This document shows, piece after piece, positions 1 through 22,129 of a stretch of DNA of 64,000 bases. Position numbers and translations under genes: made by a program. Position 1 is the first letter of the stretch. Each line of letters starts with the position of its first letter. The notes under the pieces were generated by a model. That model saw only the letters and a list, made by a program, of their open reading frames with translations. It made no database searches and was not told where the DNA came from. Source of the DNA: Maribacter zhoushanensis (GTDB lineage Bacteria > Bacteroidota > Bacteroidia > Flavobacteriales > Flavobacteriaceae); contig NZ_JARKMR010000001.1 in NCBI RefSeq assembly GCF_029350975.1, forward strand, positions 1,426,001 through 1,490,000, read 5' to 3'.

Positions 1-1
1 T

Positions 2-5185: not shown

Positions 5186-7246
5186 TTAATCTAGCTTTAA
5201 TTTTTTGTAGAAAAGCGGCTTCTTTAGAAAGAGCCATTTTGCTTTTAATCCTATTTCGGTAAATTCAAAACCTGCAGCTGTTGCAGAAGCAATATTACTA
5301 TACTTACCATAAAAGTTTAGACTAAAACGCTTAGAAAATTGATGTTGTACAGAAGCTTCAGCTCTAAAGATATTGGTGTTAGGGTCATCTTCAACTTTTT
5401 GAATACCGGTAGCTGCACTTGCCATATAAGTTGTTTTTTCAGATATTTTACCACGAACATCGGCAAAGAGTTCAACAGCTTGGTATTTCTCTGGACTAAA
5501 ATATATGGTTGGTACTTGGTCTTTAAATGTTATATACTGATAATTAACACCCATTTTTAAAGCAGGTTTTTTAAGCACATTATAGTAAAGCGATGTAAAT
5601 AATAAGTTTCTGACATTATCATCACTCTGTTGTGTATGCATTAATTGGGTATACCAGCCAAAATTGACATTAGTGCCTAAATTATAATTTAAACCATAAT
5701 GGTTTTGTACAATTTCGCGCTCAATTAATTCAGCATTAAAACTTTGCACTTCTCGTTGATAACCTAAAGTTAAGTTTTGAAGCTTAAAAGGTTGTAGGTC
5801 TAATTTTATATCAAGAACAGGCTGTGTGTATGCTTCATCTAAAAATCTTGAGTTGTTCAAACCCAATACCGTTTTTAAAATAGTCTTTGGGAATAGTTTG
5901 TACTGTAAACCCACTAAAGCTACATGTGAAGTGGCTTCATTATCTGTTACCTTATTTTCAGTAGACCTAAAGAAATAAGAAACCGTAGTTCTAAATTTTG
6001 TAGAGAAAGGTACATCTACCGTAGTATTGGTAAAAAAAGCTGTATTGTTACCGTTATCAAAAGTATAAGCGGCATGCTCTTCTATGGTAGGGGTGTGCAT
6101 TAAGTTCAACTTTTCAATAAAACCCTTGGCATCTTTTTGATTCTCATAAAATTTTAAAGTTTGGTTGGCCATGAAATACGCCGGTACAATTTTATCAGAT
6201 GCAAATAAGGCGTTTGCTTTTCCTAAATTACCATCAAAAGAAGCACTATCATTGACCAAGATTCTATCATAGCTTTCAACACTTGCTTTTGAATCTCCCG
6301 TGTATAGACCTAATGTTGCTTTTAAGGCGTGTATCCAATTTCTATTGGGAAAATGGTTTTCTAAACTATCTATTTTTTTACGGGCAGGTATAAATTTTTT
6401 ATTCCAGATGAGCGCTTGTACATAACGATCGTAGGTGTTTTCAGTTAGAGCTACGTCATCAAGTTTATCTACTTTTACTGTTGCGCCTTTAGCAATAACT
6501 AGAGCCTCTTTATCATTTTCATCTAAATGTTCTGCCAATGCAATACCATTTAACGCGGTAATAGAATCTTTTGGGGTAGTGGCATACCTAACATACATAT
6601 TCTTTGCTTTGTCCGCTTGCTTGGTAATTAAATAAAGATTGGCAAGATTGATCAATACATCTTTATCTTCAGGAAAATCTTCAAATATTTTTTTAAGTGT
6701 TTGCTCACCTTTACCATATTGTTGGTTATTAACAAAGGCATTGGCATAACCTAACCTCATAAATTTTCTTGAGACTTTAGCACTTTCGTTTTCAGGCTGT
6801 AATTCTATGGCTTTTTCAACCCAACTTAAAGCAGATTTATATTCTTTTAAATTACTCAGCGTATTTGCATATCCTAGTACGGCACCAAATTTAGTAGGGA
6901 ATTTTTCAACTAAATCTGCATATAACGGCTTGGCTTGTTCATATTCTTTAGCCCATAAAAATGATTCATTGTAATTGATCAATATTTCAAAATCACCAGG
7001 GTAATCTTCTAATAGGTCAGAGAAAAGACCTGTTGCCTTTTGTGGTTCTCCGCTAAGACCAACTGCTCGTCCATAACACAGTAAAGCTGTTTTGTTATTA
7101 GGGTCGGTTTTAAGGTATTCACCAAAAAAAAGTTCGGCTTCTTGAAAGTCACCTTTCTCTAATAAACCAAAACCTTTTGTCATATCAGATTGTGCTCTTA
7201 ATAGCGAAGAGGTCAATAGAATAAGGAAAACTACTTTACGAATCAT
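5186..7246 (-). CDS. TPR protein with C-terminal outer-membrane beta-barrel (YaiO/PgaA/PelB-like)
   Basis: 686 residues with a signal peptide ending near residue 19 (LLRAQ). Residues about 20-380 are tandem TPR repeats (for example FEILINYNESFLWAKEYEQA, ALSWVEKAIELQPEN). Residues about 395-686 alternate in the aromatic pattern of beta-strands and end without a sorting domain, consistent with a YaiO-type barrel. Periplasmic TPR plus outer-membrane barrel is the layout of the exopolysaccharide exporters PgaA, BcsC and PelB. It is divergent from the first flippase gene, so it is a good candidate for the secretion pore of this locus. The barrel call is from pattern only; a porin without export function remains possible. 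Confidence 0.7.
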   Translation of the reverse strand: MIRKVVFLILLTSSLLRAQSDMTKGFGLLEKGDFQEAELFFGEYLKTDPNNKTALLCYGRAVGLSGEPQKATGLFSDLLEDYPGDFEILINYNESFLWAKEYEQAKPLYADLVEKFPTKFGAVLGYANTLSNLKEYKSALSWVEKAIELQPENESAKVSRKFMRLGYANAFVNNQQYGKGEQTLKKIFEDFPEDKDVLINLANLYLITKQADKAKNMYVRYATTPKDSITALNGIALAEHLDENDKEALVIAKGATVKVDKLDDVALTENTYDRYVQALIWNKKFIPARKKIDSLENHFPNRNWIHALKATLGLYTGDSKASVESYDRILVNDSASFDGNLGKANALFASDKIVPAYFMANQTLKFYENQKDAKGFIEKLNLMHTPTIEEHAAYTFDNGNNTAFFTNTTVDVPFSTKFRTTVSYFFRSTENKVTDNEATSHVALVGLQYKLFPKTILKTVLGLNNSRFLDEAYTQPVLDIKLDLQPFKLQNLTLGYQREVQSFNAELIEREIVQNHYGLNYNLGTNVNFGWYTQLMHTQQSDDNVRNLLFTSLYYNVLKKPALKMGVNYQYITFKDQVPTIYFSPEKYQAVELFADVRGKISEKTTYMASAATGIQKVEDDPNTNIFRAEASVQHQFSKRFSLNFYGKYSNIASATAAGFEFTEIGLKAKWLFLKKPLFYKKLKLD

Positions 7247-7361: not shown

Positions 7362-7427
7362 TCATCTACAGCAAATGGTCATCTACCTAAAGCACTTAAT
7401 TTAAGATGGTAGCCTTTGTGATATTTG
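7362..7427 (+). promoter_or_regulatory. Shared 27-bp element plus -7 box, flippase 1 promoter
   Basis: The element at 7362-7388 fits the consensus TCRTCTAYAGYAA, four variable bases, then TYAYCYRYCT. It contains two CATCTAC repeats with a 17-base period. A -7-like box GATATTTG (one mismatch to TAnnTTTG) starts 32 bases after the element ends, at 7420-7427. The same element with the same spacing occurs at 8876 and 20863. The flippase ATG at 7470 follows 42 bases after the -7 box. An activator such as a LytTR regulator is the likely binder. Confidence 0.65.
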
Positions 7428-7469
7428 AGGCCTAACCAAGTCAATGTTTGGACTTTAAAAAACGTAACC

Positions 7470-8717
7470 ATGACAGCAATTAAACTAGTAATGAACAAAG
7501 TTTCTCCAGAAAAAATATTTATGGTGAGCGTACTGGTCGTAAACGGAGGTAATTATTTATATAACCTTATACTAGGTAGATTGCTTGGTCCCGCAGCTTA
7601 CAGTGAAGCTGCATTATTGATCACGTTACTATTGGTTTTATCTTTCTTAGGGATGACTTTTCAACTTGCAACTGCAAAATTTGCCATCTTATTTTCTAAT
7701 GACGATTGGGTAGCGCTTAAACAACTGCTGTATAAACATGCGTTGGTTTTTGGTATGCTAATAGGTATACTACTTTTTGCTTTTGCAGAAGATTTGCAAA
7801 AAATATTTCAAACAGAATCTGATTTAATTTTTAAAACTTTTGCTGTCTCGGTACCTATTTATTTTTTTATGTCCGTTAATAGGGGAAGGTATCAAGGTAA
7901 ACAAGATTATCAAAAATTATCTATTACGTATCAGACCGAGATGTGGAGCAGATTATTGATTACACTAGGTTTGTTATGGTTTGTGCCTTTCAAACCTGCT
8001 TTTCTAGTAGCGTTAGGCATTGGGCTTTCATTTGTATTCGGTTTAATTCCTACAAATTTCAACTTTAAAAGTATCACGCAAAATGTTGCCTTGTCTAAAG
8101 AGAATAGGCAGAAAGTAATAAGCTTTATTCTGTTGACTGCTGGTTATGAACTTACACAGATTATAATCAACAATAGCGATATTCTTTTGGTAAAGCATTA
8201 TTTTGATACCGTAAATGCCGGGCTTTATTCTTCTTTGGCCATGATTGGACGGGTAGTTTACTTTGTTGCTTGGATGTTTGTAATGCTGCTTTTGCCCGCT
8301 GTAGTACAAAAGCAAAAAGATGGTGAACCTACTGCACCTATATTAATTAAGTATGTAAGTTATATTGGTGGCTTGGCTATTACCATAACATGCTGTTGTG
8401 CTATTTTTCCAGAGTTTATTATCAATGTAATGTTTGGTGAGGCTTATGTTTCTATGGCGCCTTTATTATGGCAATACGCACTAGCTACTTCGCTTTTTGC
8501 TATCTCAAATATATTTGCTTATTACTTTCTGTCTCTTGATCAATATGTACCTGTGATCTTATCTGGGGTGTTGGGAATTTCTCAAATTGTGATGATTACA
8601 TTCTTTCATAGCTCTTTATACATAGTTGTACAGGTACATATAATTGCCATGGTAGCTTTATTGATTGCTCAACTACTTTATTTTACTCATAATACTATAT
8701 TGAACAAGACAGCTTAA
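7470..8717 (+). CDS. Polysaccharide flippase (Wzx/PelG-like), copy 1
   Basis: About 415 residues and a dozen hydrophobic segments, in the MATE/oligosaccharide flippase superfamily. The ATG at 7470 is chosen over a TTG at 7425 because it aligns with the start of its paralogue at 11668 and because the TTG overlaps the predicted -7 box. Characteristic stretches shared with copy 2 include NGGNYLYNL, LGRLLGP, MSVNRGR and IINNSDILLVKHYF. Flippases of this type move lipid-linked sugars or growing chains across the inner membrane. It has its own terminator and its own copy of the shared promoter element. Substrate unknown. Confidence 0.8.
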   Translation: MTAIKLVMNKVSPEKIFMVSVLVVNGGNYLYNLILGRLLGPAAYSEAALLITLLLVLSFLGMTFQLATAKFAILFSNDDWVALKQLLYKHALVFGMLIGILLFAFAEDLQKIFQTESDLIFKTFAVSVPIYFFMSVNRGRYQGKQDYQKLSITYQTEMWSRLLITLGLLWFVPFKPAFLVALGIGLSFVFGLIPTNFNFKSITQNVALSKENRQKVISFILLTAGYELTQIIINNSDILLVKHYFDTVNAGLYSSLAMIGRVVYFVAWMFVMLLLPAVVQKQKDGEPTAPILIKYVSYIGGLAITITCCCAIFPEFIINVMFGEAYVSMAPLLWQYALATSLFAISNIFAYYFLSLDQYVPVILSGVLGISQIVMITFFHSSLYIVVQVHIIAMVALLIAQLLYFTHNTILNKTA

Positions 8718-8979: not shown

Positions 8980-10209
8980 ATGAAATTAGCTATAGTAACT
9001 GCATATCCTCCTAGTAAAGTAACGTTAACGGAATACGGATATCACTTGGTAAAACATTTTAGACTTCAAAAAGAAGTAACAGAAATCATTTTAGTAACCG
9101 ATAAGACCGAAGGTGAAAAAGATCTTGCTTTTACTGAAGATGGATGTAAGATTACCGTAAAAGAATGTTGGAGATTTAATGACTACAGTAATCTTTTTAA
9201 AATAAACAAAGCTATCTCGGCAACTAAGCCAGATGCTGTACTTTTTAATTTGCAGTTTTTAAAGTTTGGTGACAAAAAAATACCTGCCGCACTTGGTTTA
9301 ATGTTACCACTTATGTGTAAAATGAAGGGTATACCTACTATATCATTACTGCACAATATAATGGAACAAGTAGATTTAGAAAATGCGGGTATCACTTCCA
9401 ATTACTTTCTTAAGAAGGCATATAATGTAATTGGTAACGTATTAACAAAATTTGTGTTGGCCTCAGATGTAGTGGCCGTAACCATAAGTAAATATCAAAC
9501 TATATTGGAGAAAAAATATGAGTCTAGAAATGTCGCTCTAATTCCCCATGGCTCATTTGAAACTCCACCAGAACCCACTTATGATTTACCTGAAGGTCCA
9601 AAAAAAGTAATGGCATTTGGCAAGTTTGGTACTTATAAAAAAGTAGAGGTCTTGATAGAAGCGGTAGAGTTGATCAGACAACGTACCGATCAAAATATAG
9701 AAATCGTAATTGCCGGTACAGATAGCCCTAATACGCCAGGATATTTAGATGGTATTAAAAAGAAATATATACACGTAGAGCAAATGCACTTTACGGGTTA
9801 CGTGGCAGAAGAAGATGTACCTGTAATTTTTAGCGAAAGCGCAGTTGTAGTTTTTCCCTATACTTCAACTACAGGTAGTTCTGGTGTGTTACACCAGGCA
9901 GGTAGTTATGGTAAGGCAGTTGTATTACCAGATTTGGGCGATCTTAGTATTTTGGTAAAAGAAGAAGGATTTAAAGGCGAATTTTTTGAGCCTGAAAATG
10001 TTGCTTCACTGGCAGACGCTATAGAGCAAATATTGGAGCACGATTCTTATAGAAAGTATTTGGCTATGGCAAATTACAGAGCTGCTTGCTCATTGCCCAT
10101 GTCAGAAATTACAAAAATGTATGTAGAATATTTTAAAGTGTTACAAGTAGCAAAGTCTAAAGGATTTACGTTAGATGTTCCTTTAGTGGAAAAAGAATTA
10201 ATGGCATAA
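8980..10209 (+). CDS. GT4-family glycosyltransferase, copy 1
   Basis: 409 residues, GT-B fold. The N-terminus MKLAIVTAYPPSK is a Rossmann acceptor domain. The C-terminal donor domain has VMAFGKFGTYKKVE, IVIAGTDSP and FPYTSTTGSSGVLHQAGSYG. In that last motif the usual GT4 pair of glutamates (EX7E) is absent, as in the second copy. It is cytosolic, with no signal peptide or clear membrane helix, and would add sugars to a lipid-linked or growing chain on the inner face. Its own promoter and terminator flank it. The paralogue at 12991 has the same length and a nearly identical start. Donor and acceptor sugars are unknown. Confidence 0.85.
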   Translation: MKLAIVTAYPPSKVTLTEYGYHLVKHFRLQKEVTEIILVTDKTEGEKDLAFTEDGCKITVKECWRFNDYSNLFKINKAISATKPDAVLFNLQFLKFGDKKIPAALGLMLPLMCKMKGIPTISLLHNIMEQVDLENAGITSNYFLKKAYNVIGNVLTKFVLASDVVAVTISKYQTILEKKYESRNVALIPHGSFETPPEPTYDLPEGPKKVMAFGKFGTYKKVEVLIEAVELIRQRTDQNIEIVIAGTDSPNTPGYLDGIKKKYIHVEQMHFTGYVAEEDVPVIFSESAVVVFPYTSTTGSSGVLHQAGSYGKAVVLPDLGDLSILVKEEGFKGEFFEPENVASLADAIEQILEHDSYRKYLAMANYRAACSLPMSEITKMYVEYFKVLQVAKSKGFTLDVPLVEKELMA

Positions 10210-10491: not shown

Positions 10492-11631
10492 ATGAAAATA
10501 CTAACCATAGATGACCAACAGCTTATTTTATTATCTGTTGAAAAGCGCCTTACCGAACTTGGATATGAGGTCAAAACTGCTGATACAGGTAAAAAAGGCA
10601 TCGAAATTTATGATTCTTTTAAGCCAGATTTGGTTCTCGTTGATATAAATATGCCCGGTATTTCTGGTTTAGAAGTAGTAAAGCATATTAAAGGTGGCGA
10701 CAGAAAATCGACCCCGGTTTTAGTGATGTCCGGCAATACCGAAGAAAATATAATTATGGATGGCTTTACTTTAGGCATTGATGATTATATGAAAAAGCCG
10801 GTAAGTTTATCTGAAATGGCGGCTCGTATTAAAAGACTGATTGGTGCCCCCGTAATAGAATTGAATGCAAATGTTTCTGGCGACGGAAGAATGTTACAGA
10901 AAAATTGTGTTGGCGTAGTAATCCCTTGTTATAATGAAGAAGAACGACTTTTAGGTAAAGAATTTAGAGATTTTGCACACAGTAACCTTGGTTATCATCT
11001 TTGTTTTGTAAACGATGGTAGTACAGATAATACGCTCGAAGTTTTAGGAGAACTAAAAAAAGGTAATGAAAGCAATATAAGTATATATGATTGTGAGAAA
11101 AATGGCGGTAAGGCCGAAGCAGTACGCTTAGGAATGTTACATATGGCCAAAGATCCTCAATTAGATTATATTGGCTTTTTAGATGCCGATCTTTCTACAG
11201 ATTTTAGAGATTTTGATGATTTAGTAGAAACACTTGACAAGTCTGATTTTAAAATTGTCAGTGGCTCAAGAATGAGCAGAATGGGAGCAGATATTACTAA
11301 AGAATCTGCACGTAAAATTATTAGTATGACCATTAACCTGATCATACGTACCATTTTAAGAATGCCATTTAACGATACACAATGTGGAGCTAAAGTAATG
11401 GACCGTTCCGTGGTGCCACTTATGTTTTCCAAGCCTTTTATTACCAAGTGGTTATTTGATGTTGAGATGTTTATACGTATGAGAAAGTACTTTGGTAAAA
11501 AAGAAGCTATTAAACTCATTTGTGAACAACCACTAAAAAGATGGATTCATGCAGATGGTTCTAAACTTTCAATGAAAGATTCAGTGAAAATTGTTGGTCA
11601 ACTTGCAAAGATTGCGGTTGTATACAGATAA
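10492..11631 (+). CDS. Phospho-receiver / GT2 glycosyltransferase fusion, copy 1
   Basis: 379 residues with two complete domains. Residues 1-120 form a receiver: acidic pair Asp7-Asp8, phospho-acceptor Asp51 in LVDINMPG, Ser80 at the switch position and Lys102 in MKKPV. Residues 138-379 form a GT2 enzyme of the dolichol/polyprenyl-phosphate hexose synthase type (DPM1/ALG5-like): IPCYNEEER, VNDGSTDNT, DADLSTDFRDFDD, QCGAKVMD and a C-terminal RWIHADGSKL. No membrane helices are visible. The receiver seems to put a cytosolic enzyme under direct phosphorylation control. The product may be a polyprenyl-phosphate sugar used by the GT-C protein at 17.6 kb. It heads a likely operon with flippase 2 (36 bases downstream) and GT4 copy 2. 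Confidence 0.9.
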   Translation: MKILTIDDQQLILLSVEKRLTELGYEVKTADTGKKGIEIYDSFKPDLVLVDINMPGISGLEVVKHIKGGDRKSTPVLVMSGNTEENIIMDGFTLGIDDYMKKPVSLSEMAARIKRLIGAPVIELNANVSGDGRMLQKNCVGVVIPCYNEEERLLGKEFRDFAHSNLGYHLCFVNDGSTDNTLEVLGELKKGNESNISIYDCEKNGGKAEAVRLGMLHMAKDPQLDYIGFLDADLSTDFRDFDDLVETLDKSDFKIVSGSRMSRMGADITKESARKIISMTINLIIRTILRMPFNDTQCGAKVMDRSVVPLMFSKPFITKWLFDVEMFIRMRKYFGKKEAIKLICEQPLKRWIHADGSKLSMKDSVKIVGQLAKIAVVYR

Positions 11632-11667
11632 TTATACTCAATAACCCTAGAAAATTACACCAAGTAG

Positions 11668-12924
11668 ATGTCAACAATAAAATTAGCTTTGAAGCGAATC
11701 TCGTCTAAACAATTGTTTATGGCTAGTGCTTTGCTTGTAAATGGCGGCAATTACTTATACAACCTACTTTTAGGTAGATTGTTAGGTCCTGAAGCTTTTG
11801 CAGATGCTGCATTATTGGTCACTTTACTCTTGGTACTTTCATTTGTAGGTATGACATTTCAATTGGCAACGACAAAATTTGCCGTGCTATTTACAAATTA
11901 TACTTGGATCGCTTTTAAAAATACCATGTATAGATATGCATTGGTATTCGGTGTATTTACCGGTATTCTGGTGCTTATTTTTTCAAAGAACCTTCAAGAA
12001 CTGTTTAATACCCAAAATCATTACATGTTTATGATTTTTGCGGTAGCCATACCCTTGTACTTTGTTATGAGCGTTAATAGGGGAAGATTTCAAGGAGGCC
12101 ATGATTTTGGAAAATTGGCGGGCACGTACCAAACAGAAATGTGGAGCAGGTTGCTACTTACTTTTGCACTTTTGCTCTTGGTGCCTTTTGAACCAGGTAT
12201 ATTGATTGCTACTGGTATTGCCCTTTCTTTTGTTTTTGGATTATTTCCTTCAGATTTTAAAGGTGTACAGGTATTCTCAAAGGATAAATTAGCTGCGGCG
12301 GAATTAAAACAAGTTTGGATTTTTATAGGACTTACTGCGGGATATGAACTTACCCAGATTATAATTAACAATAGTGACATTCTTTTGGTCAAGCATTATT
12401 TTGATGATAAACAAGCTGGCTTGTATTCATCATTAGCGTTGATCGGTAGGGTAGTGTACTTTGTGGCGTGGATGTTTGTAATGTTGCTAATGCCAACGGT
12501 TATTCAAAAACAAAAAGATGGTGAACCAACGGCTCCGGTGCTTTTTAAGTATGTATTTTTTATTGGCGGCTTATCCACCTTTATAGTATTTGTGTGCTTT
12601 CTGTTTCCGAATTTGATTATCACTTTAATGTTCGGTGATGCGTATTTATCTATTGCACATTTACTTTGGAAATATGCTTTGGCGACTTCATTGTTCGCGG
12701 TATCAAACATATTCGCGTATTACTTTTTATCATTAAATCAATATTCGCCCGTAATATTATCCGGCTTGTTAGGCTTTTCTCAAGTTGCTTTGATTATGCT
12801 ATATCATGACAATCTAGAGACCGTAGTACATATGCAAATTGTAGCTATGGTCATACTACTGGTAGCTCAACTAATATTTTTCATCATCAAGAATAAAGCA
12901 GATTCTAAAGTCATTAAAGAATAA
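11668..12924 (+). CDS. Polysaccharide flippase (Wzx/PelG-like), copy 2
   Basis: 418 residues, about a dozen membrane segments, clear paralogue of the flippase at 7470 over its full length (shared NGGNYLYNLL, LGRLLGPEAF, MSVNRGRFQGG, IINNSDILLVKHYF, FAVSNIFAYYFLSL). It starts 36 bases after the REC-GT2 stop, without a terminator between, so co-transcription is likely. The two copies differ most near the C-terminus and in loop segments, which suggests either redundancy or different substrates. Confidence 0.82.
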   Translation: MSTIKLALKRISSKQLFMASALLVNGGNYLYNLLLGRLLGPEAFADAALLVTLLLVLSFVGMTFQLATTKFAVLFTNYTWIAFKNTMYRYALVFGVFTGILVLIFSKNLQELFNTQNHYMFMIFAVAIPLYFVMSVNRGRFQGGHDFGKLAGTYQTEMWSRLLLTFALLLLVPFEPGILIATGIALSFVFGLFPSDFKGVQVFSKDKLAAAELKQVWIFIGLTAGYELTQIIINNSDILLVKHYFDDKQAGLYSSLALIGRVVYFVAWMFVMLLMPTVIQKQKDGEPTAPVLFKYVFFIGGLSTFIVFVCFLFPNLIITLMFGDAYLSIAHLLWKYALATSLFAVSNIFAYYFLSLNQYSPVILSGLLGFSQVALIMLYHDNLETVVHMQIVAMVILLVAQLIFFIIKNKADSKVIKE

Positions 12925-12936
12925 CCTAATTGAAAG

Positions 12937-12951
12937 TGCAGTAATACTGCA
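12937..12951. repeat. 15-base palindrome between flippase 2 and GT4 copy 2
   Basis: TGCAGTA-A-TACTGCA is a perfect palindrome in the 66-base gap between the two genes. There is no T-tract after it, so it is not a typical terminator. It may be an operator or an mRNA processing hairpin. No matching site was seen at the copy 1 genes. Confidence 0.4.
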
Positions 12952-12990
12952 TCCTAAAAAAATAGAGTTGTAAAATAAAATTTAACCGAA

Positions 12991-14220
12991 ATGAAATTAG
13001 CCATTGTAACCGCATATCCACCTAGTAAAGTAACCTTAACAGAATATGGTTATTATTTGGTAAAACATTTTAGACTTCAAGAAGAAGTAACAGAATTGAT
13101 TCTGATTACTGATAAAACCGACGGTGCTAAAGATTTAAATTTTGATGGCGAAGGCTGTAAGATTACGGTCAAAGAATGTTGGAGCTTTAATAGCTATAGC
13201 AATATATTCAGCATCAGTAAGACTATTTCAAAGGTAAAGCCAGATGCAGTCTTATTTAATCTTCAATTTTTAAAATTCGGAGATAAAAAAATACCGGCTG
13301 CCATGGGCTTAATGCTTCCTTTTATTTGCAAGACAAAAGGGATACCAACAATTTCATTACTACATAATATTCTTGAGCAGGTAGATTTAGAAAATGCAGG
13401 GTTCACCAATAATAAAGTACTACAAAGTATTTATAATTTTATTGGAACTACGCTAACAAAATTTGTTCTTGCTTCAGATGTTCTTGCGGTTACTATCAGT
13501 AAATATGTAACAACGTTAGAAGAGAAGTATAAGGTAAAGAATGTAGCGTTGATTCCACATGGTGCATTTGAAACCCCGCCAGAGCCAGATTTCAAGCTTC
13601 CTGAAGGTCCAAAACAAGTAATGGCATTTGGTAAGTTTGGTACCTATAAAAAAGTGGAGATTCTTATAGAAGCTGTCGAAGAAATTAGAGCTCGTACCAA
13701 TGAAGATATTGAAATTGTGATAGCAGGTACAGATAGTCCTAATACACCTGGTTATTTAGAAGAAATGAAACAGAAATATAGCCATGTACCACAAATAAGA
13801 CATACTGGTTACGTAGCTGAAGAAGATGTACCCCAAATATTTGGAGATAGTGCGGTTACCGTTTTTCCTTATACCTCTACTACCGGTAGTTCTGGTGTAT
13901 TGCATCAAGCAGGTAGTTACGGTAATGCTGTAGCGTTACCAGATTTAGGAGATTTAAGTGTATTGGTAAAAGAAGAAGGCTACTTAGGCGAGTTTTTTGA
14001 TGCTCACGATACATCATCTCTGGCAAATGCTATTGAAAAAATAATAACCGACGACTCTTACAGAGTTCAGTTGGCGAAACAAAATTATAAAGCGGCATGT
14101 TCATTACCAATGTCCGCTATTACACAGATGTATATAGACTATTTTAAAGCTATACAGAAATCGAAAGAAACCGGTTTTAATATAGATATATCAACTGTGG
14201 AGAAGAAATTGGTTCATTAA
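12991..14220 (+). CDS. GT4-family glycosyltransferase, copy 2
   Basis: 409 residues, the same length as copy 1, and collinear with it from MKLAIVTAYPP to the C-terminus. The donor-domain motif FPYTSTTGSSGVLHQAGSYG is identical in the two proteins and again lacks the EX7E glutamates. It is the third gene of the REC-GT2, flippase 2, GT4 set and is closed by a strong terminator. Substitutions are spread along the whole protein, so the duplication is not very recent. Confidence 0.85.
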   Translation: MKLAIVTAYPPSKVTLTEYGYYLVKHFRLQEEVTELILITDKTDGAKDLNFDGEGCKITVKECWSFNSYSNIFSISKTISKVKPDAVLFNLQFLKFGDKKIPAAMGLMLPFICKTKGIPTISLLHNILEQVDLENAGFTNNKVLQSIYNFIGTTLTKFVLASDVLAVTISKYVTTLEEKYKVKNVALIPHGAFETPPEPDFKLPEGPKQVMAFGKFGTYKKVEILIEAVEEIRARTNEDIEIVIAGTDSPNTPGYLEEMKQKYSHVPQIRHTGYVAEEDVPQIFGDSAVTVFPYTSTTGSSGVLHQAGSYGNAVALPDLGDLSVLVKEEGYLGEFFDAHDTSSLANAIEKIITDDSYRVQLAKQNYKAACSLPMSAITQMYIDYFKAIQKSKETGFNIDISTVEKKLVH

Positions 14221-14244
14221 GAATCGATATGGTTAGTATTTGAG

Positions 14245-14271
14245 GGCTGGTGTGGTAACCAGCCTTTTTTT
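14245..14271 (+). terminator. Rho-independent terminator after GT4 copy 2
   Basis: The stem GGCTGGT (14245-14251) pairs perfectly with ACCAGCC (14258-14264), with a 6-base loop, and is followed by seven T residues. It starts 25 bases after the stop codon. Confidence 0.88.
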
Positions 14272-14294
14272 GTGCTTATTATTTTAATTAAAGA

Positions 14295-14335
14295 AACCAT
14301 CTAAAAACAATTCTTAAATTGATTTTTAGATGGTT
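14295..14335. repeat. Inverted repeat between convergent genes
   Basis: AACCATCTAAAAA (14295-14307) and its exact complement (14323-14335) are separated by 15 bases that extend the pairing. The repeat covers the stop codon of the small membrane protein on the - strand. It may terminate - strand transcription, although no T-tract follows in that direction. The same 13 bases occur in direct orientation at 8905-8917 in the GT4 copy 1 promoter. Confidence 0.6.
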
Positions 14336-14784
14336 CGGGTATTTTTAATAAGTGCTGTAATTACGTTAATAGCATAGAATAACTGTCCAATTAGTATTAA
14401 AAGTATGAAAATGATAGATAATAAATTTAACTTTTCCCTACTTTCTAGAATGGCCATTTCTGATTCATAATTCCTATCGTGGAAAACTATAAGGGTTATC
14501 CACAAAAATAAAACACCAATATATGTCAAAGCTATATGTATAAAAGTCAACCAATCTGAAAAACGATATTTGAGTTTAGGCAATAACCAATACCCAAATC
14601 CGATTATGGCCGATAATAATGAGATTAAATAACAGATGTAGTTGTATTTGATAATATAGTAAGTGTCATAAAAGTTGATTTCTAAATCAATATTAGAATT
14701 ATTAAGACCAAAAGAAAAACTGATAAAAGTTAAAGACCAGAGTATTAAATATGGTTTATCAATAATGTTTTTTATTTTATTCAT
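14326..14784 (-). CDS. Small membrane protein resembling a fragment of cytochrome oxidase subunit I
   Basis: 152 residues with about four membrane segments. Residues 40-43 (DTYY), a GYWLLPK stretch and IHIALTYIGV lie in the same order and spacing as in the helix IX-XI part of CoxI (HDTYYVVAHFHY, YYWFPK, IHFWLTFIGV). The heme-ligand histidines of CoxI (AHFH) are replaced here by KYNY, so heme binding by this segment is not expected. It is the last gene of the - strand block with GH5, lipoprotein and GT-C genes, 28 bases after GH5. The similarity is from memory of the family motif and not from a search; function unknown. Confidence 0.55.
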   Translation of the reverse strand: MNKIKNIIDKPYLILWSLTFISFSFGLNNSNIDLEINFYDTYYIIKYNYICYLISLLSAIIGFGYWLLPKLKYRFSDWLTFIHIALTYIGVLFLWITLIVFHDRNYESEMAILESREKLNLLSIIFILLILIGQLFYAINVITALIKNTRTI

Positions 14785-14812
14785 TTACTTAATAAGGTTT
14801 TTAGACCTGATT

Positions 14813-16357
14813 TTAATCTAATTTTTTAATGGATAATTCATAATATGAGGGTTTCTTATTGCCTAAAGAATCTAAACAACCAAAGAAATGTTGCTTTTTT
14901 GTTCGCCAGGGTAAGCTGCCGGCAACCGAGTTAGGTACCTTTTCAAAGTCATAGAGCGTCCAAAATAAATACGGAATGTTCTCTTGTTCTAAATATCCTT
15001 GCATTACGTTATAATAAGCAGCTTGTTTTTCGTTAGACCCTGTGAATAAGCTCCACATACCATCATAGGAAGAATCTCCATATTCTTGTAAAACAATAGG
15101 TTTGTTTGGGGTTAAATACCTTAGAATCTTATATGATTCTATAAAATACTCAGGCTTTTTATAGTAGTGAAAAGAAATGAAATCAACTTCTTTAGATAGG
15201 TTCAACGCCGCCTCTGGGTTAGACCAACCAATGGTTATTGGGTTTTTAGTATCCCAATTTCTAATCTCTAAAATCATTTGATTTAGCCACTGTAGTACAT
15301 TCTCTTTACCACGGGAATCAAAATCTAGATCGGGTTCGTTTTTTATATCCCATCCTAAAAGTGCAGGGTGGTCTTTTACTGCATTTACAATGGCTTCTGC
15401 ATGTCTATGGGTCAATGTCCAATTAGATATGTCGTAATCTCCATAAAAATCAAACAGGGTTATGAGAACATCTAAACCGTTGTCTTCTGCCTTATCCAAT
15501 AATTTCTTTAGTAGTTCAAGCTTTTTGGTATCTACCCTGCTTTTACCAAAATCTTCATATTGAATAAATACACGAATAGTATTTAATCCCATATCGTGAA
15601 TAATCTTAAAGTCCTCATTTATAATGGTATCATTAAAACGTTTGCCAAAAGTGTCCCAAGGGGAGTCTTTTGGATAGTAGTTTAAACCTTTTTGCTGTTT
15701 GATTTTTTCAAGTTTAGCCTGTATGTTTCGTTTTTCAACTTTGGATGTATCTATGGGGTTTGGTATTTCTTTTAAGTGTCTAATACGCCAAAACCCATCC
15801 TCTAACAGCATCATAACTTGGTAGCTAGTGGTGTCTTTTTCTTTAAAAAGAAGAGATTCGCCCTCATAGGTTTCTTGATACTCTTCTACGTTGTAATCTT
15901 TAAACACCACCATAGTGCCATCGGCAGTATAAAAATCTAATGCGGGATTGTGGTTTAAGGTAGTACGTTTATACCAGTGGTTGTTCTTTACGTTTAAATC
16001 AATATTATCATACAATCTAACCCTTGCGCTATCGGTATAAAAATCTTCAATACCGTAACGGTCATTTTTCTTGAATGCAATATTTCTAACGTGCCAAGCA
16101 TTCATATAATCATTGGTTATCTCAGCTAAGGCCTGCTCTTCCATAGGTCGCCCAGGATTATCGATATTAGACCAATTTAAATTTGGTTTATACACATCAT
16201 CCATAGGTACTTCTAAATGAAGCATAGAGGTTTTGTCGGCACCGGTATTCATAAATGCCCAAGCAGCTCCTATTCCGTATAGAATTAGTCCGTTAATAGC
16301 CAAAAAGGTGACTATTAGTACAGTTCTGTATAATGCTTTATTTAACTGTATTGCCAT
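14813..16357 (-). CDS. Membrane-anchored GH5-like glycoside hydrolase with NTF2-like domain
   Basis: 514 residues. One N-terminal membrane anchor (about residues 10-36) leaves the rest periplasmic. Residues about 70-200 look like an NTF2/SnoaL-like domain (ending GFWRIRHLKEI). Residues about 210-514 form a clan-A TIM barrel like GH5 cellulases and mannanases: acid/base Glu341 in KNEPDLD and nucleophile Glu425 in VLQEYGDSS, with FWTLYDF near the end. Hydrolases inside exopolysaccharide loci trim or release the polymer, as BcsZ or PelA do. The start overlaps the upstream lipoprotein gene by 20 bases, so coupling is likely. Substrate unknown, but beta-linked hexose polymers are usual for the family. 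Confidence 0.8.
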   Translation of the reverse strand: MAIQLNKALYRTVLIVTFLAINGLILYGIGAAWAFMNTGADKTSMLHLEVPMDDVYKPNLNWSNIDNPGRPMEEQALAEITNDYMNAWHVRNIAFKKNDRYGIEDFYTDSARVRLYDNIDLNVKNNHWYKRTTLNHNPALDFYTADGTMVVFKDYNVEEYQETYEGESLLFKEKDTTSYQVMMLLEDGFWRIRHLKEIPNPIDTSKVEKRNIQAKLEKIKQQKGLNYYPKDSPWDTFGKRFNDTIINEDFKIIHDMGLNTIRVFIQYEDFGKSRVDTKKLELLKKLLDKAEDNGLDVLITLFDFYGDYDISNWTLTHRHAEAIVNAVKDHPALLGWDIKNEPDLDFDSRGKENVLQWLNQMILEIRNWDTKNPITIGWSNPEAALNLSKEVDFISFHYYKKPEYFIESYKILRYLTPNKPIVLQEYGDSSYDGMWSLFTGSNEKQAAYYNVMQGYLEQENIPYLFWTLYDFEKVPNSVAGSLPWRTKKQHFFGCLDSLGNKKPSYYELSIKKLD

Positions 16358-17585
16358 GTATATTCTTTGTAAATTCTTTTGTAATACCTGCAGCGGTCAA
16401 TTTCAATATATAGTCTCCTTCTTCAAGAAAATGCTCACCTAAGAATATGTTGCACACTCCGTTTTTTGACGTTGTTTTTTTTGTGTCTATAAACTCTCCT
16501 TCAGCATTGTAAATATCTAATTGTAATAGTAGTCCGTCAGGAATCAATTGTTTCATAAAGCTCTCAAACGGACCAATATCAATATTTCTATTTCCTTTAG
16601 AAAAATGAACCGCGTAATCTTTTATCGCAGATTTAAACTCAAATTTTGTAGTGTTACTTTCTGCAGCGCCTGTTACAAATGCTTGTATTTCCCAAAGGGC
16701 AGCTTTATCCGGGTGTAGTGTTTTGGCTTCGGCAACACCATTTATGGTAGTGCCAATAGTATACAAATATTGGTCTTTTTCATTTTTGATTACAAAAGTT
16801 ACCAGTGTGCCATTGGTAACCGTATTACCATATTCATCTTTTATAATGTCTGATGTAAACGTTACTATTTGGTTGCCATCGGCAAAGTTATGAGCGCTAG
16901 AACTACTTATAGAAAAGTTGACTGCATTAGCAGGGTATACAATGGTTGCCAATTCTTTAGAGGTGGTACCGTTACATTCTGATGTTACCAATATTCTACC
17001 AGATTTTAAGGTCGATGCCACATTATACCATGCAATAAAACTTTCTGTGGAAATCTGTAATTCATCTATATTTTCTAAGAATTGATATTTTATGGTTACT
17101 TCTGTACCATCATCTAAAGGGTTGTCATAAGCATCTGTAGGTGAAATGGTCAACATGGAGAAATCATTTCTACCTGCCGTTACACTACGGGGACCAAAAT
17201 AAGATTCTACGTAAGTTGCCTTTGGAGCATTTGTAGCAATATGATGTGTGCCTTCATCTAAAATATTACCATCTAAAAGCAACTTCCAATTGAACGGACC
17301 CGCTATTCTTGTGAAGTTCTTAGGTACAGCGAATTTTATGTTATCGGTCTCTGTTTCTGTAGCATTTAGCAGTACACTACCATATGCATTTTTAATCTGT
17401 AATTTATAGGTTTCCTTTGGCGTATCTGTTGAAAAAGATATGGTGATGGCATCACCGGCAATACTATTTTTTAATTGCGATAGTAGCTCTGTTTTGGGCA
17501 CATAAGTTTCCTTGGGTTGTTCTTCTTTTTTTTCTGAACAACCAAATAGTACCATACCTAGAAGTAGTATAATTGTATAGCGCAT
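16338..17585 (-). CDS. Lipoprotein with Ig-like (Big-type) domains
   Basis: 415 residues. The lipobox LFGC puts the lipidated cysteine at residue 16. The rest is beta-rich, with two or three Ig-like units: one with TISPTDAYDNPLDDGTEV and one with DIIKDEYGNTVTNGTLV, both resembling the invasin/Big_1 consensus. It starts 1 base after the GT-C stop codon and overlaps the GH5 gene, so the three are expressed together. A periplasmic scaffold or a polymer-guiding role is possible; nothing in the sequence shows enzymatic activity. Confidence 0.75.
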   Translation of the reverse strand: MRYTIILLLGMVLFGCSEKKEEQPKETYVPKTELLSQLKNSIAGDAITISFSTDTPKETYKLQIKNAYGSVLLNATETETDNIKFAVPKNFTRIAGPFNWKLLLDGNILDEGTHHIATNAPKATYVESYFGPRSVTAGRNDFSMLTISPTDAYDNPLDDGTEVTIKYQFLENIDELQISTESFIAWYNVASTLKSGRILVTSECNGTTSKELATIVYPANAVNFSISSSSAHNFADGNQIVTFTSDIIKDEYGNTVTNGTLVTFVIKNEKDQYLYTIGTTINGVAEAKTLHPDKAALWEIQAFVTGAAESNTTKFEFKSAIKDYAVHFSKGNRNIDIGPFESFMKQLIPDGLLLQLDIYNAEGEFIDTKKTTSKNGVCNIFLGEHFLEEGDYILKLTAAGITKEFTKNIHGNTVK

Positions 17586-17586
17586 A

Positions 17587-20500
17587 CTATTTTGGATTAC
17601 CTATATAACTATTGATTTCAAACTTTATATACTCATATCCTTTTCCTTTAAAAGGTTGTGTCTGCTGTTTGCCATGTACCAATTTTCTGTTAGGAAATAA
17701 TTTATCTGCAATGGCCTTGTTCGGTGAACCGTTTACAAAACAATTTTCTAAACTACTGCTTATAATTTCTAAACTATCAAGATCTAATGGCTTGTAATTA
17801 AAAAATTGCTTTCGCTGTATTCTAACCCCTTCGGTAACAAACTTATGGTCTACCCAAATTAAATTACTATCGGCATCATAATAGGATATAATTAACTGTG
17901 GTATGGTTACTTCCTGGACACCGGAATTAAACAATACACCATTAAAACCTTGTTCAGTATATTCCAAATCTTGTAAGGCAACATGCTTGTACAAATCTGT
18001 GTTTGCCGTATTACCTGCAGACTGCAGGTTAAACTTGGTAGGTTGTTGTTCAAAACTTACCGGTGTAAATTGATCTGGATCAAAAGTTGGCGGTAAGGTG
18101 TCTTTGGTAGACGACCATGCAATACCTTCAAAATTGATCTTGAAAGTGGTTGTTTCTTTTGGCATCAACTTATGCTTTATTTGATGCTTGGCATTATAAT
18201 TCGCCAATTCCTTATTCTCATCGTTATAAAGGGTGGCTTTAATTACAATATCTGCCGGGGTATTATCTACATTCTGTAATTCGCCAATGATACTATACTG
18301 TCCTTTGTACTTTACTAGTTTTGCCGATAGAATCTCTAAAACCGGCTGTTTTAGAACATCCTCATGATAGGTTTCTTGGGTGGTTATTTTTCTTCTACCA
18401 TGATTGTAATATGTAGTGCCATTTGCCGTGAAAAGCTGATCTGGCGGTATGTCGTTATCGAACTTTAATGATTTTACGTACCACTTATTTTTGCGTTTTA
18501 CCAGCTCATAAAACTCATTGTTGAATACGTTTTCTAATGGGGTGATCCAACGTGTGGCTACTTTTGCTTTTGCGCTATTTTCGGTTTCATCATAAATTTC
18601 AATTCCTAATGAATCTAGTTTTGCATAAGAACTTAAAATACCATCGGTTACCGAAACTTCTAGCATATACTGTGCTATATCTATATTTTCTTCAGGGTCT
18701 ATGTAAGAATGTGCTCTTGAGAATTCTTTAAAATCTAAAGCGTCATAGTAAGATTCTACTACGTTGTTCGGTGATAATTGGGTGACATTTTTTACATAGA
18801 AAATATACATGCCGTACCCCATGCATATTAAAATTAACAGAGCCCACCAATGAGAGAAGGTTAATAGTTTTGATGGAAATTTATTGTAGGGCAGTTCTAA
18901 TTTCATAAATGAATGCACCGGTACTTTCCTTGACTTTAACAGCCTTACCCATATCATTTGAATATTTACAAAAATGGCGATCAGTACGGTAGATAGCGGA
19001 ATTATACCCCACATAATTTTCATTATGGTAGGTACATCTTGCTTGGGCATAATTTGGGGTATGGGCGCCACATTTAGTTTTTCCCAAACCATAATTCCGT
19101 TTTCTAGTTGCTGTAGCCTTTGCCAACCACAGTAGTACAGAATGGGATCATAGAACTTATCGTTTGAGAATATATATTTTAGATTATATTTTTCTGGTAC
19201 TGTCAAGAATTGCTGTAAGGATCCAATACCTTCTACACCTCTAAATTTGGAGTTCTCTATCCGTTCGATGGCTCTTGTCGTCAATTCGGGTAATCGGCGT
19301 GCAGAGTGGTAGTTTCCATCTACCGTCATTGCTCTGGTCTGTGCAGAAAGCCATGCCATTTGATCTCCAAAACCTAAAGGTAAATAACGCCATGAGTCAT
19401 GCGAATCTGCTCCAAGAAAGTTAACAATTGGCAGCATTTTAATTTTAGCGGGTTGTGATGGTCTAAAATACCCTAAGGTCATAGTAAACAGTACCATAAA
19501 GAGCATACCACCTGCAATCAGCCCACCTAAAACTCTATGGTAAACTCCGCCAAACTTTTCTTGTATCAGGGTTTTTAAATCACCTTCAACCATACGGTAG
19601 GCAAACTCTGCAAAAATGGGGAGTGCCATAATGGTTGCCCACAAGGTAAACCTATCTAAGGTTAAAATATTAAATGCCATTTCACCTAGCATTAAGCGAG
19701 GTATAGGGGTGGTGCCGCCCGTTCCTAATATGGTTAATAGGGTAAAGGATAATCCGAAGAAAACATACCTTTTACTAAAATACCTGTAAAAGAAATAGGG
19801 TAGAATAAATAGAAATACGCCCCAGGGAATAAGGAAAAATACAAGACCTGATGAGGTTATTTCCAAGAAATTATCTCTTGAGCCATGAGGTATGGCAACT
19901 TGGGTAATGGGGTTTCTTTTAGAGTTGTACCAGTAGGGAAAAATACAGAACACCAGCAAGAATATAGCGGTACCGCCAAACTTGGCAATACGCCAAAAGT
20001 GTTGTAATGTAGTGCCCCAGAATACTTTAAACGTAAGTGCTTTATAAGATTCAACTTTTTCTCTAGCGGCATCCATCACCGCCATACCCATTAATGGTGC
20101 AATGAAAAATACCATGCCAAAAAGAGGGGTTACATGGTGAGAGGTTACCGTTACCGCGAGCATGGTTGCTGACGTAATGAAGTACCGTGTTTTACCTGTT
20201 TTGATCCACAAGTAAATTTCTGTCATGGAGTGTAACAATATCGATAACGCCGAAACGCTAGGTAACTGCCCAAAAATATGTAATGTTTCTACAAAGGTTG
20301 ATGAGAATACGGCCATTACGGCACCGTAGCCGGCAATTCTTCTACTACCGGTCATTAATAGTGTGTACCTATAAGCACCCGTAATAAATAGCACTATAGC
20401 TATTAACGCGACCGTATACATACCAAACTTTAAACCACCTATATAAGAGAGTATACCAATTAGCTGATGTACCAACGGTGGATAAGATTGTACGGTAAAG

Positions 20501-20676
20501 CCCGTATACCATCTATATTCCCAAGGGTCAAACCAACTACTGGCATAATGATCCGCAAAAAATAGGTGTATTAATGCGTCATAAGTAGATTCTAACGTAA
20601 AGAAAATAGCAGAACCATGAAAAGCAAGGCCTACTATTAAAGCCAGTATTAAAAGGGTATTGGTTTTTTTCTTCAA
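17587..20676 (-). CDS. Large GT-C-like membrane protein with periplasmic NTF2-like and FxLYD-like domains
   Basis: 1029 residues. The first 550 or so contain about a dozen hydrophobic helices; the first loop has DALIHLFFADHY and DPWEYRWYTGF, typical of GT-C enzymes and of 'PTPS-related' membrane proteins, in which acidic residues sit in the first outer loop. A further helix lies near 609-632. The C-terminal region is periplasmic: an NTF2-like domain (about 637-739) and two FxLYD-like beta domains (about 775-860 and 897-970). GT-C enzymes use polyprenyl-phosphate sugars on the outer face, which would fit a product of the REC-GT2 proteins. It leads a four-gene - strand operon and is divergent from REC-GT2 copy 2. 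GT-C activity is inferred from architecture. Confidence 0.65.
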   Translation of the reverse strand: MKKKTNTLLILALIVGLAFHGSAIFFTLESTYDALIHLFFADHYASSWFDPWEYRWYTGFTVQSYPPLVHQLIGILSYIGGLKFGMYTVALIAIVLFITGAYRYTLLMTGSRRIAGYGAVMAVFSSTFVETLHIFGQLPSVSALSILLHSMTEIYLWIKTGKTRYFITSATMLAVTVTSHHVTPLFGMVFFIAPLMGMAVMDAAREKVESYKALTFKVFWGTTLQHFWRIAKFGGTAIFLLVFCIFPYWYNSKRNPITQVAIPHGSRDNFLEITSSGLVFFLIPWGVFLFILPYFFYRYFSKRYVFFGLSFTLLTILGTGGTTPIPRLMLGEMAFNILTLDRFTLWATIMALPIFAEFAYRMVEGDLKTLIQEKFGGVYHRVLGGLIAGGMLFMVLFTMTLGYFRPSQPAKIKMLPIVNFLGADSHDSWRYLPLGFGDQMAWLSAQTRAMTVDGNYHSARRLPELTTRAIERIENSKFRGVEGIGSLQQFLTVPEKYNLKYIFSNDKFYDPILYYCGWQRLQQLENGIMVWEKLNVAPIPQIMPKQDVPTIMKIMWGIIPLSTVLIAIFVNIQMIWVRLLKSRKVPVHSFMKLELPYNKFPSKLLTFSHWWALLILICMGYGMYIFYVKNVTQLSPNNVVESYYDALDFKEFSRAHSYIDPEENIDIAQYMLEVSVTDGILSSYAKLDSLGIEIYDETENSAKAKVATRWITPLENVFNNEFYELVKRKNKWYVKSLKFDNDIPPDQLFTANGTTYYNHGRRKITTQETYHEDVLKQPVLEILSAKLVKYKGQYSIIGELQNVDNTPADIVIKATLYNDENKELANYNAKHQIKHKLMPKETTTFKINFEGIAWSSTKDTLPPTFDPDQFTPVSFEQQPTKFNLQSAGNTANTDLYKHVALQDLEYTEQGFNGVLFNSGVQEVTIPQLIISYYDADSNLIWVDHKFVTEGVRIQRKQFFNYKPLDLDSLEIISSSLENCFVNGSPNKAIADKLFPNRKLVHGKQQTQPFKGKGYEYIKFEINSYIGNPK

Positions 20677-20862
20677 AAGTTATATTAGAATCAATTTTAA
20701 TATAAAGGTATTAAATATATAAGATGATGATTACAATAAAAAGGGATTAGCGGTAATTTTAATAATATAATACTTACAATTTCCTTTATTGTTTACAGAA
20801 TATCTTAAAATTGATTTTACTTTTTTTTAAAAAAAATTTCGTTGTCGAAAGTTACAAACCGC

Positions 20863-20928
20863 TCGTCTACAGTAAACTGTTACCCGTCTTTGATTGTTAA
20901 GAAACATAATCCTTACCAAGTAATTTTG
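20863..20928 (+). promoter_or_regulatory. Shared 27-bp element plus -7 box, REC-GT2 copy 2 promoter
   Basis: The third copy of the shared element (20863-20889) is again followed after 31 bases by a -7 box, here TAATTTTG (20921-20928), a perfect TAnnTTTG. The ATG of REC-GT2 copy 2 follows 34 bases later. Here two CGTCT strings are also 21 bases apart, the usual period of LytTR direct repeats. The element lies in the divergent gap with the GT-C operon and might act on both. Confidence 0.68.
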
Positions 20929-20962
20929 TCAATGTTAACCATAAGCAACCAAATTTTAGAGT

Positions 20963-22129
20963 ATGAAAATTTTAGCCATAGACGATCAAAAACTTATACT
21001 GTTATCTGTTGAAAAACGATTAACGGAAATAGGTTATGAAGTCAAAACAGCCAATTCTATTGAGTCTGGTATTCAATTATTTAATTCTTTTAAACCAGAT
21101 TTAGTTTTGCTAGATATGAATATGCCAGAGATATCTGGTACAGAATTAGTATCATGTACTGGTACAGAAGTGGTAAAGTACATTCGTATGTTCATGAAAA
21201 ATGATACGCCAATTTTAGTAATGTCAGGAAATACGGATGAACATTTAATCATGGAAAATTTTAATCTAGGGGTTAATGATTATCTTAAAAAACCCGTAAG
21301 CTTAGATGAAATGGCGGCTAGAATTAAAAGAATAATAGGCGTTCCAAAGAATGAAGGTGTGGTAACTTCTAAAGTATCGGATACACGTATTCTTCAAAAA
21401 AAATGTGTGGGTGTCGTTATTCCATGCTATAATGAAGAAGAGCGACTGTCAAGTGAAGATTTTAAAGCTTTTGCCCATAAGAATATAGGTTATCATTTAT
21501 GTTTTGTCAATGATGGTAGTACAGATAATACATTGTCAGTTCTACGGAAATTAAAAAATGAAAACCCAGATAACATTAGTATTTATAATTGCAAAGAAAA
21601 TGGAGGTAAGGCAGAAGCGGTAAGACAAGGTATGTTGCACCTGGTAAAAGATGCACAATTAGATTATATAGGGTTTTTAGATGCAGATCTTTCTACAGAT
21701 TTTAGAGATTTTGATGATTTGGTAAAAACAATCGAAACCTCTGATTTTAAAATTGTAAGTGGGTCACGTATAGCAAGAATGGGCGCCAATATTACAAAAG
21801 AGTCTGCTCGTAAGGTAATAAGCATGACCATTAACCTTATTATCCAAACAATATTAGGTATGCCTTTTAAGGACACCCAGTGTGGTGCCAAAGTAATGGA
21901 TCGTGAAATTGCCTCAAAAATGTTCAACAAAAAGTTTGTTACCAAATGGCTGTTCGATGTTGAACTGTTTATGAGAATGAAAAAATATTTTGGAAAAGCT
22001 GAGGTAAAGAATATGATTTGCGAGCAACCGTTAAAAAGATGGATACATGCTGATGGCTCTAAATTATCTATGAAAGACTCTGTTAAAATTGTTGGCCAAT
22101 TAGCCCAAATAGCAGTACATTATAGATAA
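20963..22129 (+). CDS. Phospho-receiver / GT2 glycosyltransferase fusion, copy 2
   Basis: 388 residues, collinear with the protein at 10492. The receiver has Asp7-Asp8, Asp51 in LLDMNMPE, a switch Ser in VMSGNTD and LKKPV. The GT2 domain has IPCYNEEERL, VNDGSTDNT, DADLSTDF, QCGAKVMD and RWIHADGSKL. Unlike copy 1 it carries eight extra residues after the phospho-acceptor loop, made by a 24-base tandem duplication (CTGGTACAGAA at 21135 and again at 21159), which lengthens the start of receiver helix 3. It is monocistronic with its own shared-element promoter and a terminator. Its divergent neighbour is the GT-C protein that could use its product. Confidence 0.9.
   Translation: MKILAIDDQKLILLSVEKRLTEIGYEVKTANSIESGIQLFNSFKPDLVLLDMNMPEISGTELVSCTGTEVVKYIRMFMKNDTPILVMSGNTDEHLIMENFNLGVNDYLKKPVSLDEMAARIKRIIGVPKNEGVVTSKVSDTRILQKKCVGVVIPCYNEEERLSSEDFKAFAHKNIGYHLCFVNDGSTDNTLSVLRKLKNENPDNISIYNCKENGGKAEAVRQGMLHLVKDAQLDYIGFLDADLSTDFRDFDDLVKTIETSDFKIVSGSRIARMGANITKESARKVISMTINLIIQTILGMPFKDTQCGAKVMDREIASKMFNKKFVTKWLFDVELFMRMKKYFGKAEVKNMICEQPLKRWIHADGSKLSMKDSVKIVGQLAQIAVHYR

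Follow-up and report, generated by a model that had tools for sequence, protein, structure and literature searches.

Many bacteria switch matrix polysaccharide through cyclic di-GMP (c-di-GMP). By what means do the Bacteroidota control theirs, and could a phosphorelay act directly on the enzyme that supplies the sugar? We analyzed 64,000 nucleotides of Maribacter zhoushanensis (Flavobacteriaceae; contig NZ_JARKMR010000001.1, positions 1,426,001 to 1,490,000; hereafter the window), in which two genes each join a response regulator receiver to a family 2 glycosyltransferase domain (REC-GT2). The locus is a testable answer in which the synthase itself would be phosphorylated, with pathway, likely donor and likely sensor in one 26-kb stretch. 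On balance, we lean toward the reading that a phosphorelay, probably sensing nitric oxide (NO) or redox state, switches lipid-sugar supply at the enzyme level, in place of the c-di-GMP of other bacteria. The two genes lie where the original prediction placed them:

10492..11631, plus strand: REC-GT2 copy a, 379 amino acids; receiver 1-117, linker about 118-139, GT2 140-379
20963..22129, plus strand: REC-GT2 copy b, 388 amino acids; divergent from the gene for the membrane protein MEM1029 (see below)

The copies are paralogues with 74% identity, and each has full PF00072 (7.3e-26 in copy a, 2.7e-22 in copy b) and PF00535 (3.7e-22 and 8.7e-22) matches above the curated Pfam cut-offs. They account for two of the 22 GT2 matches in the genome, and three Maribacter records have REC-GT2 at 93-94% identity. 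The receiver residues of the original prediction correspond to D7, D8, D51, S80 and K102 of copy a; copy b has the same set, with the Ser and Lys shifted by 8, since 8 residues are inserted where receiver helix 3 begins. This TELVSCTG-like insertion resembles a small internal duplication, and a similar form occurs in a few relatives. All five residues are invariant across the 60 distinct fused proteins used for our conservation counts. By its acidic pair, acceptor Asp, switch Ser/Thr and Lys, the receiver is predicted to be phosphorylatable. E108 (60/60), D98 (59/60), R112 (59/60) and R115 (56/60), residues that mark the helix4-strand5-helix5 dimer face in the OmpR/PhoB group, are kept as well, and by sequence the receiver is of OmpR/PhoB type. 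Its matches in the PDB include the receivers of YycF, PhoP, CtrA and PleD.

What kind of enzyme does the receiver precede? The DGS, DAD and GSKL motifs that had been predicted are present in both copies and, among the 60 fused proteins, in 59, 57 (plus one DAG) and 57, respectively; the losses include two decayed members, in genomes G113 (no Pfam GT2 match) and G117 (a weak one). REC-GT2 homologues at L138:9347-10489 and L139:9138-10274, in genomes without MEM1029, have an intact receiver and have lost the GT2 motifs. The nearest solved structures to the GT2 domain, by sequence and fold, are ArnC and GtrB (Foldseek 7.4e-11 and 9.5e-10), and dolichol-phosphate mannose synthase is more distant, so the predicted DPM1/ALG5 type is right as to the broad kind, with different nearest relatives. 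Model and motif give it the GT-A fold with a metal-binding DXD. REC-GT2 shares fold and motifs with these enzymes, and differs from them in its N-terminal receiver and in that no C-terminal transmembrane part was seen, the ArnC/GtrB alignments spanning about 240-250 columns and the protein ending after helix 361-378. Some members of the ArnC/GtrB/dolichol-phosphate mannose synthase family also lack C-terminal membrane helices.

How widespread is the fusion? The original prediction had proposed looking for it across Bacteroidota. A profile built from both REC-GT2 proteins (E <= 1e-60; our E-value limits of 1e-60, 1e-40, 1e-70 and 1e-100 were our own choice) picked up relatives in 79 of the 299 Flavobacteriaceae genomes searched. 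Matches span both domains in 62, a figure in which the two decayed members and two matches truncated at contig ends are counted, and the GT2 part only in 17. Presence in 62 of 299 genomes rules out chance fusion or an assembly artifact as the origin. Named carriers of the fusion include strains of Zobellia, Maribacter, Algibacter and Winogradskyella. In a phylum-wide sample of 296 genomes, 12 matched, nine of them Flavobacteriaceae; outside the family, G712 has the full fusion and G585 and G822 the GT2 part only. An unrooted GT2-domain tree, from which short fragments and matches under the length limits were left out, and in which some branches are long and the bootstrap is not fully settled, places 60 fused and 20 receiver-less (REC-less) forms on opposite sides of one branch (support 100/99), so repeated gain or loss of the receiver is not needed. 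L063 and L121, which come from outside the family, fall on the REC-less side, and the topology thus fits a single origin of the fusion.

The genes around REC-GT2 point to polysaccharide synthesis and export:

5186..7246, minus strand: TPR protein, probably an outer-membrane exporter, remotely PgaA-like (TPR_19 1.1e-20)
7425..8717, plus strand: flippase copy a (Polysacc_synt_3; PF13440 5.8e-12)
8980..10209, plus strand: GT4 glycosyltransferase copy a (PF13692 3.2e-20)
11668..12924, plus strand: flippase copy b, starting 36 bp past REC-GT2 copy a; 63% identical to flippase copy a
12991..14220, plus strand: GT4 copy b, 75% identical to GT4 copy a
14813..16357, minus strand: glycoside hydrolase-like protein (PF02836 2.8e-6; N-terminal hydrophobic stretch by eye)
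16338..17585, minus strand: Ig-like, lipoprotein-like protein, conserved in the locus (Invasin_D3 weak, under cut-off; lipobox by eye)
17587..20676, minus strand: MEM1029, 1029-amino-acid membrane protein; N-terminal part GT-C-like, followed by NTF2-like and FxLYD-like domains

The span 10492..22129 holds six open reading frames (ORFs) beside the two REC-GT2 genes, one of them of 152 amino acids, and the cassette of flippase, GT4 and REC-GT2 is duplicated. REC-GT2, the TPR outer-membrane protein, flippase, GT4, hydrolase and MEM1029 belong to a conserved polysaccharide locus. MEM1029 occurs in 76 of the 299 genomes, of which 75 also carry a REC-GT2-type GT2, and the two gene starts are at most 6 kb apart in 68 of those 75. 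Among the best 50 structure matches listed for MEM1029, all rows in the transmembrane region are GT-C enzymes or relatives, and its model has a GT-C membrane fold. Our 96 fetched stretches represent 72 distinct loci, many of them short, and neighbor counts are therefore lower bounds; here, as for the co-occurrence and residue counts, genome sets were compiled by hand and kinship was not corrected for. As context for a lipid-sugar product, a ManA gene is present in at least 11 of the 72 loci, and ManC in at least one.

Two small neighbors recur. A STAS-domain-like gene (e.g., L161:8615-8893) lies near the flippase in at least 16 of the 72 loci and is reminiscent of SypA, which is a STAS protein; similarity among these genes goes down to 28%, and one member was checked against Pfam. 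A free-standing 123-amino-acid receiver, about 55% identical to that of REC-GT2, was seen at L046:10001-10372 (same genome as L158:4778-5149) and L048:276-647, and adjoins REC-GT2 in at least two of the 72 loci. Further along the window, a 1951-amino-acid ORF (35507-41362) probably encodes a surface protein; by eye, it combines leucine-rich repeats with a long array of Cys/Trp repeats in tandem.

Where might a phosphate come from? Beside the locus, reading from upstream into the window, lie genes for a single receiver, H-NOX, a PAS kinase, FIST, a soluble kinase, Hpt and a LytTR regulator, the last four followed by two more signaling genes:

1..607, plus strand: FIST (NosP-like) protein, C-terminal part; the gene begins upstream of the window
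607..1671, plus strand: soluble histidine kinase, NosK-like (HATPase_c 1.7e-21; HisKA 0.0026 at residues 139-197)
1668..1988, plus strand: likely Hpt phosphotransfer protein, His56 (PF01627)
1989..2699, plus strand: LytTR-type response regulator (PF00072 and PF04397)
2717..3130, minus strand: single-domain receiver (PF00072)
3134..4921, minus strand: sensor histidine kinase (HK_sensor/Cache)

As we read it, the unit starts some 3.5 kb before the window and takes in roughly positions 1-22129, about 26 kb in total. H-NOX and FIST genes both adjoin histidine kinases, the arrangement of a NosP/H-NOX system. The H-NOX of this genome matches HNOB at 5.5e-39, and YxSxR, the H-NOX heme motif, is present in 25 of 27 H-NOX proteins in the fetched stretches. 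The complete gene of this FIST protein (L162:12477-13607) matches PF08495 (2.1e-41) and PF10442 (4.6e-36); FIST and its kinase are an optional part of the relay, and no sensor domain was found in that kinase. The product of 1668..1988 is likely an Hpt protein, judging from its relatives: His56 is kept in 19/19 orthologues, 18 of which match PF01627 at E <= 10 (best 8e-6; own member 0.033, under cut-off), and the profile matched Hpt domains in the PDB at a non-significant E of 0.08-0.19.

The relay and the polysaccharide locus keep company. The relay LytTR gene is present in 113 of the 299 genomes and in 73 of the 76 with MEM1029 (hypergeometric 3e-36, without correction for kinship). Of the 61 fused genomes that carry it, 50 have it no more than 25 kb from GT2 or MEM1029, as do nine of 16 REC-less genomes (15 with MEM1029 plus G079). 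H-NOX is visible in 12 of 20 REC-GT2 loci with longer flanks (L142-L161); the others end early or have the relay further off. Three genomes (G011, G172, G227) have LytTR elsewhere, yet H-NOX, kinase and Hpt genes at the locus (L146, L148, L150), and in G077 and G113, which have no MEM1029, REC-GT2 is 5.1 and 8.6 kb from the relay LytTR gene. In G288, a receiver piece and a MEM1029 piece beside the relay are likely remnants of a REC-GT2 locus; a GT4 piece beside the relay in G115 (no Pfam match) is perhaps another.

In some genomes the relay adjoins a different candidate target. In G034, G109 and G246 it lies next to another polysaccharide cluster, with a PF02397 sugar transferase that carries an N-terminal receiver-like domain:

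L165:14272-15459, L167:4981-6168 and L172:7594-8826: receiver-like domain fused to Bac_transf (PF02397)

The acidic pair of this domain is reduced and the acceptor Asp replaced, for which reason it looks like a pseudo-receiver, a judgment from three of the 12 genomes with the fusion; a separate receiver with the usual residues adjoins it. The Bac_transf fusion occurs in 12 of the 299 genomes, none with MEM1029, and the relay gene is present in 11 of the 12 (hypergeometric 1.3e-4, likewise without kinship correction), at most 5 kb away in six.

Is c-di-GMP available as an alternative output? A search for GGDEF, with EAL and HD-GYP outside its scope, gave no match in this genome nor in any of the 40 REC-GT2 genomes tested, chosen from the 61 other fused genomes; eight of 14 control genomes were positive. 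In Bacteroidota, GGDEF proteins are reported to be absent or very few in number (PMC7288161).

We propose the following scheme. REC-GT2 would be a polyprenyl-phosphate sugar synthase, soluble or peripheral to the membrane and probably specific for mannose. Its own OmpR/PhoB-type receiver, when phosphorylated or not, would determine its activity. H-NOX and the NosP-like FIST would report NO or redox state to their own kinases, and phosphate would pass via the Hpt protein to Asp51. Phosphorylated receivers may then pair via helix4-strand5-helix5 and so switch the GT2 domains, on or off. The nearest known logic is that of PleD, in which phosphorylation pairs the receivers and thereby the enzyme domains. 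MEM1029 would use the polyprenyl-phosphate sugar at the outer face of the inner membrane to build a polysaccharide, for whose synthesis and export the locus would supply the GT4, flippase and TPR proteins. Such direct two-component control of glycan supply is the most economical reading, and the locus and relay context weighs more than the fusion itself. More tentatively, without c-di-GMP the relay may be wired straight into the lipid-sugar enzyme as a post-translational matrix switch with no second messenger, and coupled a second time, in other family members, to the receiver-like polysaccharide-initiating sugar transferase; we rate this wider idea as possible, rather short of probable.

The coupling of REC-GT2 and relay is not strict, and several points weigh against direct control. 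Sixteen MEM1029 genomes have only a REC-less GT2, and 15 of these also have a relay gene, which refutes the idea that fusion and relay always go together. G113 and G117 combine an intact receiver with a decayed GT2, and 40 relay genomes have no MEM1029. In addition, fusions of receivers to a BcsA-like glycosyltransferase (MTH_548 type) have already been reported in Methanobacteriaceae (PMC5847659). In a rival reading, the receiver would dimerize or dock in a phosphorylation-dependent way and so bring the synthase to a GT-C/flippase complex, its activity as such unswitched. The linker is variable (mean majority-residue frequency 0.43, versus 0.74 for the receiver and 0.82 for GT2, from 58 rows, 56 of them distinct) and of low confidence in the AlphaFold model, in which a search for interdomain contact gave no usable interface, and REC-less homologues occupy the same locus. 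However, a mere dock would not need the whole phosphorylation site, which is invariant (60/60), and we think this reading unlikely.

Alternatively, some other cellular kinase could phosphorylate REC-GT2, with the H-NOX/FIST relay reaching the locus through the LytTR regulator only. This would suit the relay being kept in 15 of 16 genomes with REC-less loci, and a further kinase is encoded nearby (3134-4921); yet L146, L148 and L150 have H-NOX, kinase and Hpt genes at the locus without LytTR, and REC-GT2 lies near the relay in G077 and G113 despite the lack of MEM1029. We doubt this reading about as much as the docking role. Far less credible is a receiver that acts as a phosphate sink or competitor tuning LytTR signaling, with the GT2 part secondary: G113 and G117, which keep the receiver beside a decayed GT2, and the extra free receiver in at least two loci speak for it, but 57 of the 60 fused proteins retain DAD, as many retain GSKL, and GT2 accompanies MEM1029 in 75 of 76 genomes. 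Control of the synthase through its own receiver remains the reading we prefer.

What preceded the fusion at this locus? REC-GT2 and REC-less GT2 are both present in G077 and G248. Eight of eight short GT2 pieces score higher against the REC-less than against the fused form; six adjoin REC-GT2 and two, in genomes that lack MEM1029, adjoin the relay. The pattern points to REC-GT2 having displaced an unregulated GT2 copy, but plain duplication and loss would equally yield such pieces. Pieces of about 160 amino acids without DAD directly follow REC-GT2 at L046:11601-12104, L051:11212-11700 and L056:11206-11697; with L054, they occur in at least three genera and are nearer the REC-less clade. They are possibly functional pseudo-enzymes.

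How does the locus compare with known systems? With a probable TPR outer-membrane exporter it resembles Pel and PNAG export, and Pel gene content also includes GT4 and a flippase. In contrast to those systems, its TPR protein scores 57 bits against TIGR03939 (PgaA), far under the cut-off of 366.65, and the REC-GT2 genomes gave no GGDEF match. The Pfam/NCBIfam results held no Pel-named match for flippase or GT4, the presence of Pel models in those libraries being unchecked, and family models thus give no support to Pel/PNAG membership. The Bacteroidota response regulator PorX has an enzyme-like output domain. It is a case in the same phylum of an output that does not bind DNA, while output and process differ from those here (PMC11320123).

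In NosP-NosK-NosR and H-NOX/kinase systems, as here, a FIST or H-NOX gene adjoins a kinase, and NosK, like the kinase at 607..1671, has no recognized sensor domain and has roughly 130 residues ahead of its phosphorylation domain; in the sections of these papers that we drew on, the outputs are c-di-GMP enzymes or transcription, whereas here there is no GGDEF match and the candidate output is a glycosyltransferase (PMC12570481, PMC8738867). In HnoX-HahK/SypF/SypG-SypE of Vibrio fischeri, an NO sensor and a phosphorelay control the SYP polysaccharide, partly below transcription via the response regulator SypE and SypA; SypE acts on SypA without being fused to a biosynthetic enzyme, unlike REC-GT2 (PMC12369376).

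The joining of receivers to metabolic enzymes is an established trend, with one glycosyltransferase case in print, that of MTH_548 (PMC5847659). Like REC-GT2, it joins receiver(s) to a GT2-superfamily glycosyltransferase and is lineage-restricted, so REC-GT2 is a variant of a fusion already known, contrary to the original prediction, which was aware of no described example in this context. A literature search found no fusion of a receiver to an ArnC/DPMS-like GT2, although most subscription papers were not covered and absence from print is not shown. The MTH_548 type is archaeal and cellulose-synthase-like (PF13641), whereas REC-GT2 is ArnC/GtrB/DPMS-like (PF00535) and belongs to a conserved polysaccharide locus, near which a relay lies. 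What is new in REC-GT2 is a glycosyltransferase of another type, bacterial and spread through one family, that comes with a GT-C-like partner and a relay that is a candidate for gas sensing.

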